64,000 nucleotides of DNA from Indolivaga macrotermitis (GTDB lineage Bacteria; Bacteroidota; Bacteroidia; Bacteroidales; Dysgonomonadaceae): positions 1 through 64,000 of the forward strand of contig NZ_FQUC01000003.1 in assembly GCF_900128985.1 (NCBI RefSeq), read 5' to 3'. The notes under the pieces were generated by a model. The model saw nothing but the letters and a program-made list of their open reading frames with translations, was not told the DNA's origin and did no database searches. The position numbers and the translations under genes are program-made. Positions 6,075 through 21,821 of this stretch are shown here, piece by piece. The stretch's first letter is position 1, and every line of letters begins with the position of its first letter.

Positions 6075-6893
6075 ATGGGAGTAGATGAAGGTGTAAAGAA
6101 GAATAAAAGAGGAGTAAAGGCTTTGTTGACAATTGCATTGATTGTGCTTCTGGTCGCTTTGTTTTTCATGTTCTTTGTAAGAATCACTCATGTCGAATCG
6201 GGATATATAGGCATAAAGTCTACACTATCCGGTTTGTCCGATTCTTCTGCCAAGCGTAATGTATCGCTGGTTAGAGGCTATAGTATCTATATGCCTTTAT
6301 ACACAGATTTCAAGATATACCCTGTGACTATTCAGACCGCAGCTTACGACACGATGCGAGTTAACACAGATGATGGGGTTGAGTTTGTTATTAAACCCCG
6401 TATATCGTTTCATGTAAGTGAAGATAAGGCTGCTTTGTATTTTACATCGGTGAATGATGATCTGGGGAGACTCAAGAACGGATATTTGAAGGAAATTATA
6501 GCAAGCAGTTATACAAGCATTTTGGGAGGGTATACGTCCGATTCTTTAACACGGCATCAAAGTGAAGCCGATCGTGAAGTGGAGAGCCTTATAATATCCA
6601 AAATGACAGATATTGGTCTGGAGGTAGATAATCTGAATACAAATTTTCAGATCCCGAAGAAGATAAAAGATATAATAGAACTACGGAGCCTGGCTGAGCA
6701 TAATATTCTGTTGGCTCAAAATCAAAAGCGTCTGGCTTATGCACAGGCTGATATTGCCCGGATGGAAGATTCGCTCCGGTACTCATCATTGACAGACTTA
6801 GCTATAAAGAAATTATACATTGATAAATGGGATGGAAAACTACCTGCATATGGTAATGTTTCATCTAAACTACATAAAGACATAATAGAATAA
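6075..6893 (+). CDS. SPFH/prohibitin-like membrane protein
   Basis: This 272-residue protein has one N-terminal membrane helix at about residues 17-38, followed by an SPFH (stomatin/prohibitin/HflK) domain ([25 protein letters not shown]) and a helical segment at about 195-235 ([28 protein letters not shown]). Family members assemble into membrane rings that scaffold proteases or microdomains. It lies between hisC and hisB with 8- and 5-base gaps, so it belongs to the operon. SPFH proteins often pair with an NfeD or protease gene; none is next to it. Confidence 0.85.
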
Positions 6894-6898
6894 GGATA

Positions 6899-8014
6899 AT
6901 GAAAAAAAGAGCTTTATTTATAGACAGGGACGGGACAATTGTGATAGAACCTCCGGTTGATTATCAGCTGGATAGTCTGGAGAAATTAGAATTCTATCCG
7001 AAGGTAATACGTAACCTGTACTTCATAAAGAAACACCTGGATTTTGAGTTTGTCATGGTTACAAACCAGGATGGACTGGGAACTGCATCTTTTCCCGAAG
7101 AGACCTTCTGGCCAGCACACAACCTTATGCTCAAAACGCTGGAGGGTGAAGGTGTTACTTTTGAAGATATATTGATAGACCGTAGCTTTCCTGAAGACAA
7201 TGCTCCTACCCGTAAACCCCGTACAGGAATGCTGACTAAATACCTGTCGGGAGAATATGACCTTACCCACTCTTTTGTAATTGGTGACAGGCTGACGGAT
7301 GTTGAACTGGCAAAGAACCTCGGAAGTAAAGCTATTTTCCTAAGGGAAGATATGGATATACCGACAGAACTAAAGGAATCTTGTGCCCTTCAAACCAACG
7401 ATTGGGATAAAATCAGTGAATTCCTTTTTGCAGGAGAGCGTAAAGCCGAAGTAAGACGTACAACAAAGGAAACGGATATTTATATTTTCCTTAATCTGGA
7501 TGGAAAGGGCGTTTGTGATATTCATACCGGATTAGGGTTCTTCGATCATATGCTCGAGCAAATAGGCAAACATGCCAATATGGATCTAACTATACAGGTA
7601 AAAGGTGATCTTCAAATAGATGAACATCATACGATTGAAGATACTGCTCTGGCTCTGGGCGAGGCTCTGGCTAAAGCTTTGGGCGATAAACGAGGAATAG
7701 AACGTTACGGGTACTCTCTTCCGATGGATGACTGCTTATGTTCAGTTGCCCTTGATTTCGGAGGACGCCCTTGGTTGGTATGGGACGCCGAGTTTAATCG
7801 TGAAAAAGTGGGAGATATGCCTACCGAGATGTTTCTGCATTTCTTCAAGTCATTGAGTGATGCTGCTAAGATGAATCTGAATATAAAAGCTGAAGGAGCA
7901 AATGAACATCACAAAATAGAGGGAATATTTAAAGCTTTAGCTCGTGCCCTGAAAATGGCAAAGCAACGGGATATATTTAATTATGAACTTCCTAGCACCA
8001 AAGGCGTGATCTGA
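6899..8014 (+). CDS. hisB: Bifunctional histidinol-phosphatase / imidazoleglycerol-phosphate dehydratase HisB
   Basis: This 371-residue fusion carries out two steps. Residues 1 to about 165 form a HAD phosphatase with the nucleophile motif IDRDGT (D9 and D11) that dephosphorylates histidinol phosphate. Residues from about 180 form the manganese-dependent dehydratase, with the metal-binding motifs [17 protein letters not shown] and [17 protein letters not shown]. The start has AAGGA a few bases upstream. It is the last his gene here; hisH, hisA, hisF and hisI are not in the window and must be elsewhere. Confidence 0.97.
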
Positions 8015-8108: not shown

Positions 8109-8179
8109 GGTTCCTTGGCCGAGTGGCTAGGCACCGGTCTGCAAAACCGTCTACGGCGGTTCGAATCCGCCAGGAACCT
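8109..8179 (+). tRNA. tRNA-Cys (anticodon GCA)
   Basis: The acceptor arms GGTTCCT and AGGAACC pair perfectly, with T as discriminator. The anticodon loop CTGCAAA, closed by CGGT/ACCG, gives anticodon GCA at 8141-8143. The T-arm GGCGGTTCGAATCCGCC is standard. No CCA is encoded. The 3' end of the gene is the integration site of the element, whose att sequence restores the mature end. Confidence 0.96.
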
Positions 8180-8181
8180 CA
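8168..8181 (+). repeat. attL core, within the tRNA-Cys 3' end
   Basis: CGCCAGGAACCTCA is identical to the copy at 21938-21951. It covers the last part of the T-arm, the acceptor 3' strand and two bases beyond the tRNA. Integration into the tRNA 3' end keeps the tRNA functional. Confidence 0.85.
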
Positions 8182-8259: not shown

Positions 8260-8280
8260 TTGCACGGTATTCGCACGGCA
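8260..8280 (+). repeat. Left arm-type integrase site (predicted)
   Basis: A pair of GCACGG words (TTGCACGGTATT then CGCACGGCA) forms a 21-base unit that recurs with only two differences at 21801-21821, in the same orientation. Both copies lie inside the element, about 80 and 116 bases from the att cores. That is the expected arrangement of arm-type binding sites for a tyrosine integrase. Confidence 0.65.
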
Positions 8281-15540: not shown

Positions 15541-15999
15541 TTATTTCTTAAATACCTCCCATCGCAAGTCGTTGCTTCCTTTCATCTTGAACTCTGTAGG
15601 GCTAGAGATGAGTAGATTTGAATAAGTTCTATTACCAGTTTCAGTGAACGATAAGCCAATAGATGTTGCATTATGGTCGATGTAATAATACTTGTCGAAC
15701 GATTGACCATTGTAGTAGGTCACTGTCAGCAAACCGTGTATTTTTCGTTCTCGTCCTTCTCCAGTTGCATAATTCTCATCGAGAACAACCACCTTTGCAG
15801 GATTGTACTGCTCCTTGAATGTAATAGTTGTAGTGCCAACTTCATGTACATACTCGAACGTGCCATTAAAGACAAATAGAGCCTTTTTTTGAGCCTCACT
15901 CATCGAATTGCCTGCGTTGTCGTCATCGTCGTCGCTAGAACATCCTACAAATGAAAAACTAACCACCGTCAACATTAAAAATAAAAATGCTTTTTTCAT
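15541..15999 (-). CDS. Small unknown lipoprotein
   Basis: The 152-residue protein begins with a lipoprotein signal: MKKAFLFLMLTVVSFSFVGC, where C20 would be lipidated, followed by SSDDDDD, an acidic stretch typical of Bacteroidetes lipoproteins sent to the cell surface. The rest (about 35-152) has alternating strands (TFEYVHEVGTTTITFKE, KYYYIDHNATSIGLSF) suggesting a small beta-barrel such as a lipocalin-like fold. The gene is alone, with a structured stretch upstream and a convergent terminator downstream. Its role in the element is unknown; surface exclusion or phage interference would be guesses. Confidence 0.82.
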   Translation of the reverse strand: MKKAFLFLMLTVVSFSFVGCSSDDDDDNAGNSMSEAQKKALFVFNGTFEYVHEVGTTTITFKEQYNPAKVVVLDENYATGEGRERKIHGLLTVTYYNGQSFDKYYYIDHNATSIGLSFTETGNRTYSNLLISSPTEFKMKGSNDLRWEVFKK

Positions 16000-16046
16000 A
16001 AAAGTAAATTATAAAGTATCCATCAGCCCCGAATTGGAAGGTTTTA

Positions 16047-16270
16047 TAAAAAAGAAACGTGGGAACTGCTAACTCATTGTAGTAAGAGGCTCTGGTAAGC
16101 CCATGACACAAATAAGCAACAGCCCCACGCCTTTTATGAAGACGTGGAACATTCTGCCTATTATCTATGTGTCAATTTGAATTTACCAGATTCCTTACTA
16201 CAAGATAAAGATAGACGTTTCGTATATTTTCAATAAGTATGGAGTCTCCTAACGTTTTAGTTAACTCCAT
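16047..16270 (-). ncRNA. Candidate structured non-coding RNA, rod-like
   Basis: Nested perfect helices are visible: GAAACGT (16054-16060)/ACGTTTC (16215-16221), TTGTAGTAAG (16077-16086)/CTTACTACAA (16194-16203), CTGGTAA (16092-16098)/TTACCAG (16183-16189), TGACACA (16104-16110)/TGTGTCA (16168-16174), and a CCACG/CGTGG tip (16125-16129/16143-16147). A separate hairpin, TATGGAGT/ACTCCATA (16238-16245/16264-16271), lies at the 5' end on the minus strand. On that strand a TAnnTTTG box precedes it and six Ts follow the outer helix. It might instead be the leader of the lipoprotein mRNA or a DNA hairpin. Confidence 0.5.
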
Positions 16271-16274
16271 ATGG

Positions 16275-16282
16275 CAAAGATA
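16275..16282 (-). promoter_or_regulatory. Possible -7 box for the structured RNA or lipoprotein gene
   Basis: The minus strand reads TATCTTTG here, an exact TAnnTTTG. It lies just after the minus-strand terminator of the terminase-like operon and just before the 5' hairpin of the candidate RNA. No good -33 box is seen, so support is partial. Confidence 0.4.
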
Positions 16283-16283
16283 T

Positions 16284-16314
16284 AAAAAAGGTCGGTATCG
16301 TAACGAAACCGACC
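16284..16314 (-). terminator. Terminator of the terminase-like three-gene operon
   Basis: GGTCGGT (16290-16296) pairs with ACCGACC (16308-16314); read on the minus strand the hairpin is followed by six Ts. It lies 27 bases beyond the stop of the last gene of the leftward operon. Confidence 0.8.
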
Positions 16315-16341: not shown

Positions 16342-16944
16342 TTATATCCTTTGGATATCAGCCATAAGACGCTCTTCATTTAGCTTAAATGCCCCTGCTT
16401 CTTGGTTGTGGTCAATGTAGTTCATTGGAAAGAATCCGCTATTGACAAGCTCACAGACTGTATGAGTTAACTCCATCATTTTGCATTGTTGCTCAGATAG
16501 CTCGATATGGGAAGCCTCCTTGACATATTTATCTAGGACTTCTTCATCAACCCAACACAATCTAGTCATAGAAGGAAGAGGATACCTTATTTTGAACTGC
16601 CATTCTTCAAACGGAATACCTAGAGAGCTGAATCGACTAGACAATGAGGATAGATGTGGAATAGTATTCATATAGCCTGCTAAATATTTCTTCCTCAGTT
16701 CATCTAAAAAATCTCTAGGAAAATCAGCATGATTCGCCAAAAATATAGATACAGGACGTACAAAAATATCTTTTGTCTCATCTTCCTTATCAACAGCCCT
16801 CATTATTCGTTCTAGGTCTTCTCTGCAAAATTTGACATCCCCAAATTTGCACGCTTCAATAATAATACCTTCGAAAGCACGACACACTTCTTTATACTGA
16901 CCTCGTAAATATGCTTCCTTGGAAGCTAAATAGATTTTTTTCAT
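16342..16944 (-). CDS. Unknown protein, 200 residues
   Basis: The protein is not recognised. It is soluble, mostly helical and balanced in charge (MKKIYLASKEAYLRGQYKEVCRAFE at the start). No signal, membrane segment or catalytic motif is evident. Its start overlaps the stop of the 60-residue gene by four bases and it is followed by a terminator, so it is the last gene of a tight operon headed by the terminase-small-subunit-like gene. This places it in the element's core or packaging-interference module by context only. Confidence 0.72.
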   Translation of the reverse strand: MKKIYLASKEAYLRGQYKEVCRAFEGIIIEACKFGDVKFCREDLERIMRAVDKEDETKDIFVRPVSIFLANHADFPRDFLDELRKKYLAGYMNTIPHLSSLSSRFSSLGIPFEEWQFKIRYPLPSMTRLCWVDEEVLDKYVKEASHIELSEQQCKMMELTHTVCELVNSGFFPMNYIDHNQEAGAFKLNEERLMADIQRI

Positions 16945-17124: not shown

Positions 17125-17679
17125 TTAATTATTGTTTGTTGAAGCTTCTTCTTCTTTTAACTGTTCTACTCGTTCCCTTTTGCGTTGCTCCTGCTTCTCC
17201 TTATAATATTTGCAAAGGTGGCACGTGAGCGGAAGATAAAAGACCACCTGTTCTTTTTGTGTAGGAGAATCTTTATGATAACCCATGAGCTTATTGATAG
17301 CTTCCAAACAAGCAATCTTTATTCGCTCATCCTTTGTTCCATCCATAATTGCTTTATAGCGTCGAATTTGGTTGTGACGGGTTAGGTAATCATCATCCAG
17401 CTCAACATCTTCGATGGATTGAGTTGAGGAGGGTAAACTTTCATCTGAGGATGAGTTAACTCCTATCGTATTGAAGGTTAACTCCAACTCCTTTTCTGTC
17501 AGATATTCTGCAACATGAGGAGAGGTCTTTAATCGAGAAGCCTGAACTTTCATGCTGTCTCCTTTCGCTGTCGAATTCGGATGAAGAAGTCTATATGCTT
17601 TAGTAGCATCCCATCCAGCTAATACCAAATCGCAAAAAGCAAGCTCTTTGGTTGTTAATTTATTGTCTTTTTTAACCAT
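17125..17679 (-). CDS. Phage terminase small subunit-like protein
   Basis: Residues 8-66 follow the pattern of terminase small subunits: LTTKELAFCDLVLAGWDATKAYR, then ASRLKTSPHVAEYLTEKE, a DNA-binding helix-turn-helix arrangement. A later helix (RIKIACLEAINKLMGYH) also fits family members. In phages this protein picks the DNA to be packaged; in phage-inducible islands a satellite copy redirects packaging to the island. The C-terminus is highly charged and, at 184 residues, length is normal. No large subunit, portal or capsid gene is near, which fits a satellite rather than a prophage. Another DNA-binding role is possible. Confidence 0.62.
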   Translation of the reverse strand: MVKKDNKLTTKELAFCDLVLAGWDATKAYRLLHPNSTAKGDSMKVQASRLKTSPHVAEYLTEKELELTFNTIGVNSSSDESLPSSTQSIEDVELDDDYLTRHNQIRRYKAIMDGTKDERIKIACLEAINKLMGYHKDSPTQKEQVVFYLPLTCHLCKYYKEKQEQRKRERVEQLKEEEASTNNN

Positions 17680-20394: not shown

Positions 20395-21756
20395 TTATCC
20401 AATTTTCATTTGTACACGTTGAAAATATCCATTGTCTGCAAGCATTGCTTTTTCTTTATTGTTTAATTTGAGGTAAGTTTTTAGTTGTTCCTCACTCTCA
20501 TGTCCAGATATGGCTATTATTTCTGACAATTTACATCCTGCTTGTTGCATATTTGTACACAATGAACGACGGCAACTATGAGTTTTAACCATATCGCAGA
20601 ATCGTTTAGATATTTTAGCCTTCATGCCAGCTTTATTTTGATTTATTTGAACTATCTCTGTAAACTCAGCCTTTTCGCATATTTTCTTTATATAATCATT
20701 AATCTTCTGGTCATAAGTCTTAGGTAAAGTGCCATTGTATTTATTCAATATCTCTTTAACCCTCCAATCTAAAGGTATATATACGGTCTTATCCGTTTTC
20801 TCTTGACATAATTCAACATATTCTAGTCCATTGGATAACTTTGTAATCATGCTAGAATTAATTCGCTTATAATCACTCACACGCTGTCCTGTTAAGCATC
20901 CGACAACAAAAACATCCCTTACCTTCTCCCATGCAAGATTATCGGATAAATCCATATTATAAAGTATTTCAATTCTTTCTTGAGTTAAGTAAACATTGTC
21001 TACTTCTTCATAATTAGCGACAAAATCAGAGTTTTCTATCTCCCTATTGTTATGGAGCTTCATATCTTTAGCTGCATACATGACAGTCTTTAATATTTTA
21101 ATCATACGCCCTACAGTATTCGCAGCGTATTTTCTATCGAAGATCAAATAGTTTTTAAAGTCTCCATGAAAATCCATAGTGATATCTTCAAAATCTATCA
21201 CTTTATTTCTGTCATTTTGATAGTCGTTTAGCCGATTTCTAAAACCCTTAATGCTTTTAACTGTACCTTCACTTACTTTTTTATTCGAGCGTTTCTTCAA
21301 CCTTTTACCTGTTTCGAGGTCGTTAATATACTGTTCTATAAATTTATTTAGAGTTATTGGTTTTTCTATTACTTTAGGTTTTAATTCTAGGTAATAAGCA
21401 TTTATAACTTCTTGTAACCATTCGCTAGTATAATCTCCAGAATGGCTGTTAAAAGCTTGAACAATGGAGTCTTTCAGTCCTCGAATTACTTTGTTGGTTT
21501 CTTGTATTAAATCATTGCTTTTATCTGTTTCTTCCACTAACTCATTTCTCTCTTCAATAGAAAGACCTTTGGTGTCTTTACTCGTTAGATATTTTAAATC
21601 CAACTCTTCTTTTTTGAGATTCCATGACTTAATTCTTATCGTAGTCTCAGTGACTCCATAGAGAGCTTTTTTCGCATCAATATTATATCTAACTCGAAGT
21701 ATTGCAAATTCCGCATCTTTTTTGCTAGTTCTGTAGGTTAATTTTAATGTTGCCAT
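20395..21756 (-). CDS. Tyrosine site-specific recombinase (integrase)
   Basis: This 453-residue enzyme joins and cuts the element at the tRNA-Cys att sites. The catalytic set is complete: R292 in LTGQRVSDY, H393 and R396 in HSCRR, H in ISGHES, and the nucleophile Y428 in LKTYLKL. The N-terminal part (about 1-110) is an arm-binding region and 140-240 is the SAM-like core-binding domain, the layout of Bacteroidetes transposon and phage integrases. It reads inward from the right end; the minus-strand box TATCTTTG at 21779-21786 may be its -7 element. The predicted arm site at 21801-21821 lies right behind it, so integrase binding could repress its own promoter. Confidence 0.94.
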   Translation of the reverse strand: MATLKLTYRTSKKDAEFAILRVRYNIDAKKALYGVTETTIRIKSWNLKKEELDLKYLTSKDTKGLSIEERNELVEETDKSNDLIQETNKVIRGLKDSIVQAFNSHSGDYTSEWLQEVINAYYLELKPKVIEKPITLNKFIEQYINDLETGKRLKKRSNKKVSEGTVKSIKGFRNRLNDYQNDRNKVIDFEDITMDFHGDFKNYLIFDRKYAANTVGRMIKILKTVMYAAKDMKLHNNREIENSDFVANYEEVDNVYLTQERIEILYNMDLSDNLAWEKVRDVFVVGCLTGQRVSDYKRINSSMITKLSNGLEYVELCQEKTDKTVYIPLDWRVKEILNKYNGTLPKTYDQKINDYIKKICEKAEFTEIVQINQNKAGMKAKISKRFCDMVKTHSCRRSLCTNMQQAGCKLSEIIAISGHESEEQLKTYLKLNNKEKAMLADNGYFQRVQMKIG

Positions 21757-21800: not shown

Positions 21801-21821
21801 TTGCACGGTATTTGCACGGTA
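21801..21821 (+). repeat. Right arm-type integrase site (predicted)
   Basis: TTGCACGGTATT followed by TGCACGGTA differs from the left copy at 8260-8280 in two of 21 bases. It lies 116 bases inside attR and overlaps the upstream part of the presumed integrase promoter. Confidence 0.65.

Follow-up and report, generated by a model that had tools for sequence, protein, structure and literature searches.

Riboswitch and attenuator leaders combine a promoter of their own with a structured leader, mutually exclusive antiterminator and terminator helices and a gene close behind. The RNA described here, encoded on the minus strand at 16047-16282 of the window (the whole stretch of 64,000 nt of Indolivaga macrotermitis DNA that was analysed), shows the same organization, but differs by the unrelated cargo that follows it, by a five-helix rod with complementary hairpin loops and by the absence of an Rfam family. 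It shares a long rod with internal loops with 6S RNA including 6S-Flavo (RF01685), and the property of being a multi-copy structured family in Bacteroidales with the FopS small RNAs of Bacteroides, which consist of a single-stranded 5′ stretch (the seed) and one terminator hairpin and are described as deposited in Rfam (PMC11697453). Like integron attC sites and cassettes, it conserves fold over sequence and is dispersed beside very different mobile genes. Related arrangements are the rAID clusters of Bacteroidales, with conserved intergenic motifs beside variable genes (PMC12247911), and the mobile or repeat motif MRSC-65-2, likewise an abundant multi-copy stem with covariation, formed by a single long stem with UYCCGG repeats (PMC11109978).

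Searches against Rfam 15 at gathering level returned no match on the window, on Bacteroidales loci or on loci of Flavobacteriia, Fibrobacter and Ignavibacteria, and at a permissive E-value, applied to the window site only, nothing at the site reached a family's threshold. No matching description was found among the Flavobacterium psychrophilum RNAs or in structured-RNA surveys, the coverage of the literature being incomplete; by Rfam 15 and the literature searchable within this coverage, the family is new. An earlier sequence-only reading had likened the rod to 6S RNA or to a retron-type RNA. Neither likeness held up, as no match to the Rfam 6S models was obtained and the RNA is multi-copy and located in front of genes, and as no reverse transcriptase was present among the Pfam matches of the element's scanned genes. 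FopS, by its description (PMC11697453), is set apart from the five-helix rod without Rfam match found here, and the UYCCGG-repeat stem of MRSC-65-2 (PMC11109978) is absent from it. The rAID intergenic motif was rejected with the RNA occurring at 0 of 26 SUKH-gene loci in one family of genomes, a count that does not involve the published motif itself. A leader-peptide attenuator was also rejected: a leader ATG exists in 51 of 87 copies, but the ORF lengths vary and are mostly below 15 codons.

Folding of the minus strand of 16047-16282 gave a minimum free energy of −82.6 kcal/mol; 200 dinucleotide-shuffled sequences gave −48.1 ± 4.5 kcal/mol, and not one of them reached so low a value (z = −7.67). 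The plus strand folded more weakly (z = −5.84). The structured minus-strand RNA proposed earlier is therefore real, no ORF of at least 80 aa covers the rod, in line with the claim that no gene explains it, and the TAnnTTTG box, the 5′ hairpin and the T-run flank it where they had been placed (Table 1). The nested helices were found as well; the outermost one (GAAACGT with ACGTTTC), however, is not part of the conserved rod model, and no counterpart of it was seen in homologues compared by eye. The T-run indeed marks a terminator-like end, which can be refined insofar as the strand preceding it (T) forms a helix with strand A3, namely an alternative terminator of which T is the 3′ arm. A terminator-like hairpin upstream sets the site apart from the preceding gene. 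The palindrome GAGTTAACTC occurs at 16464-16473 and 17453-17462, twice in the window compared to 0.07 expected and both times near the RNA, and a related word (near-copy) lies inside the 5′ hairpin at 16254-16270; the palindrome is a possible operator.

Table 1 Features of the RNA site and its immediate surroundings in the window.
Feature	Position	Strand	Basis
Promoter −7 box TATCTTTG, Bacteroidota TAnnTTTG type	16275..16282	-	sequence
5′ hairpin of the putative leader, sequence varies among copies	16239..16270	-	fold and position
Family core (rod and terminator strand T), covariance model R1	16055..16212	-	R1 match and covariation
P1 5′ strand, partner 16073-16086	16194..16208	-	fold, covariation
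H1, local hairpin GAAT[CTGGTAA]ATTC; loop pairs with H2 loop as rod helix P2	16179..16193	-	
P3 5′ strand, partner 16104-16110	16168..16175	-	fold, covariation
P4 5′ strand, partner 3′ half of A3	16154..16165	-	fold, covariation
A5, apical 5′ strand; partner of A3 in the rod state	16139..16153	-	fold, covariation, duplex energy
A3, switch strand; partner A5 (rod) or T (terminator)	16111..16133	-	covariation, duplex energy
H2, local hairpin GGGC[TTACCAGA]GCC; loop complementary to H1 loop	16088..16102	-	
P1 3′ strand	16073..16086	-	fold, covariation
T, terminator 3′ arm GAGTTAGCAGTTCCCACG, complementary to A3	16058..16075	-	covariation, duplex energy
U-run TTTCTTTTTT of intrinsic terminator	16048..16057	-	T-run conservation and fold
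D, segment complementary to T just 5′ of the gene; weak, partly subfamily-specific	16019..16041	-	
Gene behind the putative leader, 152-aa lipoprotein-like protein without Pfam family; ATG about 55 nt past model end	15541..15999	-	
Terminator-like hairpin GGTCGGTTTCGTTACGATACCGACC followed by T6; closes preceding gene 16342-16944 (minus)	16290..16314	-	sequence

A blastn search with the region gave matches in 24 of the 101 genomes available for the same family. The covariance model R1, built from 26 sequences, scored the window copy, itself part of the model, at 145.4 bits (E = 9.3e-32), identified five copies in the window's own genome and matched 51 of these 101 genomes, the richest of which has 24 copies. 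In the order and the phylum, where seven candidates were scored per genome, matches were obtained in at least 150 of 393 and at least 53 of 395 genomes, respectively. A degenerate pattern yielded further copies in Flavobacteriia, Cytophagia, Sphingobacteriia, Fibrobacter and Ignavibacteria, which R1 confirmed, and two records that bear the labels Clostridia and Pelotomaculum are likely to be binning errors. Three viral contigs carry the RNA by pattern, and none of the phage records searched contained it; comparison of the site of a second copy with same-genus genomes gave no match. The rod represents one copy of a large, apparently undescribed RNA family in Bacteroidota, Fibrobacter and Ignavibacteria.

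Across 87 distinct copies the rod is paired in 88.6% of cells compared to 64.5% in shuffled and 40–44% in slid controls, and 49 of its 50 pairs show two-sided changes; a separate, more distant phylum-wide set gave 87.3% and 48 of 50 pairs. The stems at homologous sites, named by the sequence-only reading as its test, are hence kept through compensating changes in two sets. Both alignments were fitted to the model and are biased towards it, which we regard as a minor concern in view of both kinds of control and the magnitude of the effect. The duplex of A5 with its own A3 reached −17.4 kcal/mol compared to −13.4 kcal/mol with swapped partners. The local hairpins H1 (GAAA..UUUC) and H2 (GGY..RCC) are formed in 90.0% compared to 78.8% after shuffling, and seven of their nine pairs show two-sided changes. 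For H2, pair 228-241 is UA in 38, CG in 27 and UG in 16 copies. The loops of H1 and H2, being complementary and forming rod helix P2, could act as kissing loops or as an alternative to the rod. Counts of G-U versus A-C cells on the minus strand amounted to 461:114 in the rod and 321:42 in the A3:T helix, and this excess of about 4:1 and more than 7:1 fixes the minus strand as the transcribed one.

As in attenuator leaders, a promoter lies upstream of the RNA and a same-strand gene downstream. Of 87 copies, 68 carry the TAnnTTTG box in the 140 nt upstream, a length in which 0.10 occurrences would be expected; the box is mostly found at positions −60 to −90 relative to the start of the rod. In 59 of 120 copies, 50–69 nt separate the end of the model from the next ATG. 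The Bacteroides ovatus copy is followed after 49 nt by a gene annotated as belonging to the dihydrofolate reductase family, with rteC and mobilisation genes nearby. Among 30 fetched homologues of one RibD-like (RibD/DHFR-like) protein, the RNA stands directly before the gene in 23, and it is missing mainly from the most remote of them. The earlier suggestion of a self-contained RNA was right about the promoter and the terminator-like end, but the constrained start-codon distance and the linkage to the RibD/DHFR-like homologues make self-containment doubtful and the RNA looks like a 5′ leader. A stand-alone, trans-acting small RNA whose transcription invariably stops at the U-run, with the gene served by its own start or by leaky read-through, would likewise account for the promoter and the intrinsic terminator, and also for a minority of copies, some of them in Flavobacteriia, which lack a close same-strand gene and count against the leader reading. 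We nevertheless consider it unlikely, because neither the constrained ATG distance nor the long-lasting linkage to a gene family would be expected and because mutually exclusive rod and terminator folds would have no obvious purpose.

The proteins encoded downstream are diverse, with 61 Pfam families in 99 proteins and RibD_C/DHFR-like domains as the commonest (10 of 99), and a common pathway behind the RNA was rejected on these numbers; its absence is unusual for a metabolite riboswitch and counts against the leader reading. By eye, the proteins behind Fibrobacter copies resemble restriction-modification enzymes, and an EcoRI-type methylase follows one copy. Tandem leader-gene units were observed at L207 (1263-1412 and 2388-2537), L052 and L168, and at L207 two related genes each lie behind their own, nearly identical leader. 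In Paraprevotella xylaniphila, an abiF RNA (RF03085; L274, 7551-7587) is located about 0.6 kb downstream of a leader copy.

The alternative helix formed by A3 and T carries two-sided changes in 22 of 22 pairs and is paired in 84.2% compared to 42–53% when slid, and its own duplex (−25.1 kcal/mol) is about 7 kcal/mol better than that of strands swapped between copies (−17.95 kcal/mol). A T-run of at least four is present in 78 of 87 copies, and 16048-16133 of the window, folded alone, adopts the long terminator hairpin (−35.4 kcal/mol, z = −5.4). Since both states need strand A3, rod and terminator exclude each other, and the locus thus combines, in the manner of attenuator leaders, an intrinsic terminator with an exclusive antiterminator and covariation in both. 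The complementarity of T with D is weaker than the other pairings (own −11.5, swapped −10.0, window −10.3 kcal/mol) and was seen in only part of the subfamilies. In the computed energies the rod is favoured over the terminator state by about 7 kcal/mol on average; termination would then need kinetic or factor help, which counts against a leader switch.

Overall, we favor, with somewhat better than even confidence, a cis-acting 5′ leader with transcription attenuation and the rod as antiterminator as the best explanation, and it is the reading that explains the most facts. Transcription would start just downstream of the TAnnTTTG box and proceed through the 5′ hairpin into the rod. As long as A3 stays with A5, antitermination would allow the polymerase to read into the gene behind, here the lipoprotein-like one, whereas displacement of A5 from A3 by T would create the long hairpin followed by U's and a stop after about 225 nt. 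The trigger, for example a small molecule, an RNA-binding protein or the speed of transcription, would act on the rod, most plausibly on the H1/H2 module. Expression, termination, its regulation and the signal are the parts of this leader model that we infer; rod-or-terminator folding between promoter and genes probably switches those genes on and off.

Comparison of flanking regions revealed three locus pairs (L035/L130, L038/L054 and L210/L211) in which, at one and the same chromosomal site, left flank, RNA and right flank are kept and the gene between differs, other pairs in which RNA and gene are kept and the upstream region differs, and one pair (L153/L156) with RNAs that are 87% alike before different genes and without shared flanks. 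The leader accordingly behaves as a module beside exchangeable cargo, which fits horizontal gene turnover under a shared leader. Many of the genes upstream are those of mobile elements, with RteC in 10, integrase domains in about 7–10 and resolvase in 6 of 148 proteins. The differing genes at the three pairs and at L153/L156 and the recurrent integrases, resolvases and RteC would also agree with a folded single-stranded DNA site of attC/attI type, whose hairpins would be recognised by a recombinase, with incoming genes placed directly behind the site. This is quite improbable, however, as no second motif copy was present at the right border of inspected cargo, and as promoter, U-run and terminator covariation, which distinguish the locus from attC, are features of a transcript. 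In addition, copies in single-contig genomes are dispersed with only few close pairs, unlike attC or CALIN arrays one gene apart, and the rod base is not conserved in sequence and shows no conserved attC end boxes (RYYYAAC / GTTRRRY).

The high copy number in some genomes, several copies near contig ends and the locus L060, with two inverted copies of an IS1595-type transposase and RNA (1-451 and 6668-7117), would be consistent with a MITE-like mobile element or a repeat merely bringing a promoter. Covariation across at least three phylum-level groups and the conserved position before ATGs render this very unlikely, and for two of the contig-end cases the cause is the inserted end of an unrelated ISL3-type element (GGATCAACCCGAATTC...), which interrupts the RNA itself in L182 and sits at the start codon in L060. 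The borders of the compared copies vary.

Within the window, direct repeats (TTGCACGGTATTCGCACGG / TTGCACGGTATTTGCACGG) at 8260-8278 and 21801-21819 adjoin a tRNA-Cys gene (8109-8180) and a tyrosine integrase gene (20395-21756), and probably mark the attachment sites of an integrative element of 13.5 kb that carries the leader. Between 8910 and 15503, type I-like methylase and specificity genes, an 8xMP membrane protein and a FokI/Mrr-like nuclease are encoded in one row; no HsdR helicase was found among the scanned genes, so that the nuclease may replace HsdR.

More tentatively, and a little short of even confidence, the RNAs may constitute a new class of sensing leaders in Bacteroidota, Fibrobacter and Ignavibacteria, which is characterized by two hairpins with complementary loops and places horizontally acquired genes of any function under one common signal; newly arrived cargo would then come under ready-made control. 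If the leader reading is right, very common gut and environmental bacteria would harbour an RNA family that is unlisted and counts hundreds of members, with a testable switch made of two covarying, mutually exclusive helices. Mobile cargo, restriction-modification-like and lipoprotein genes among it, would share one point of control, and the regulation of newly acquired genes in Bacteroidota would become testable at single leaders.
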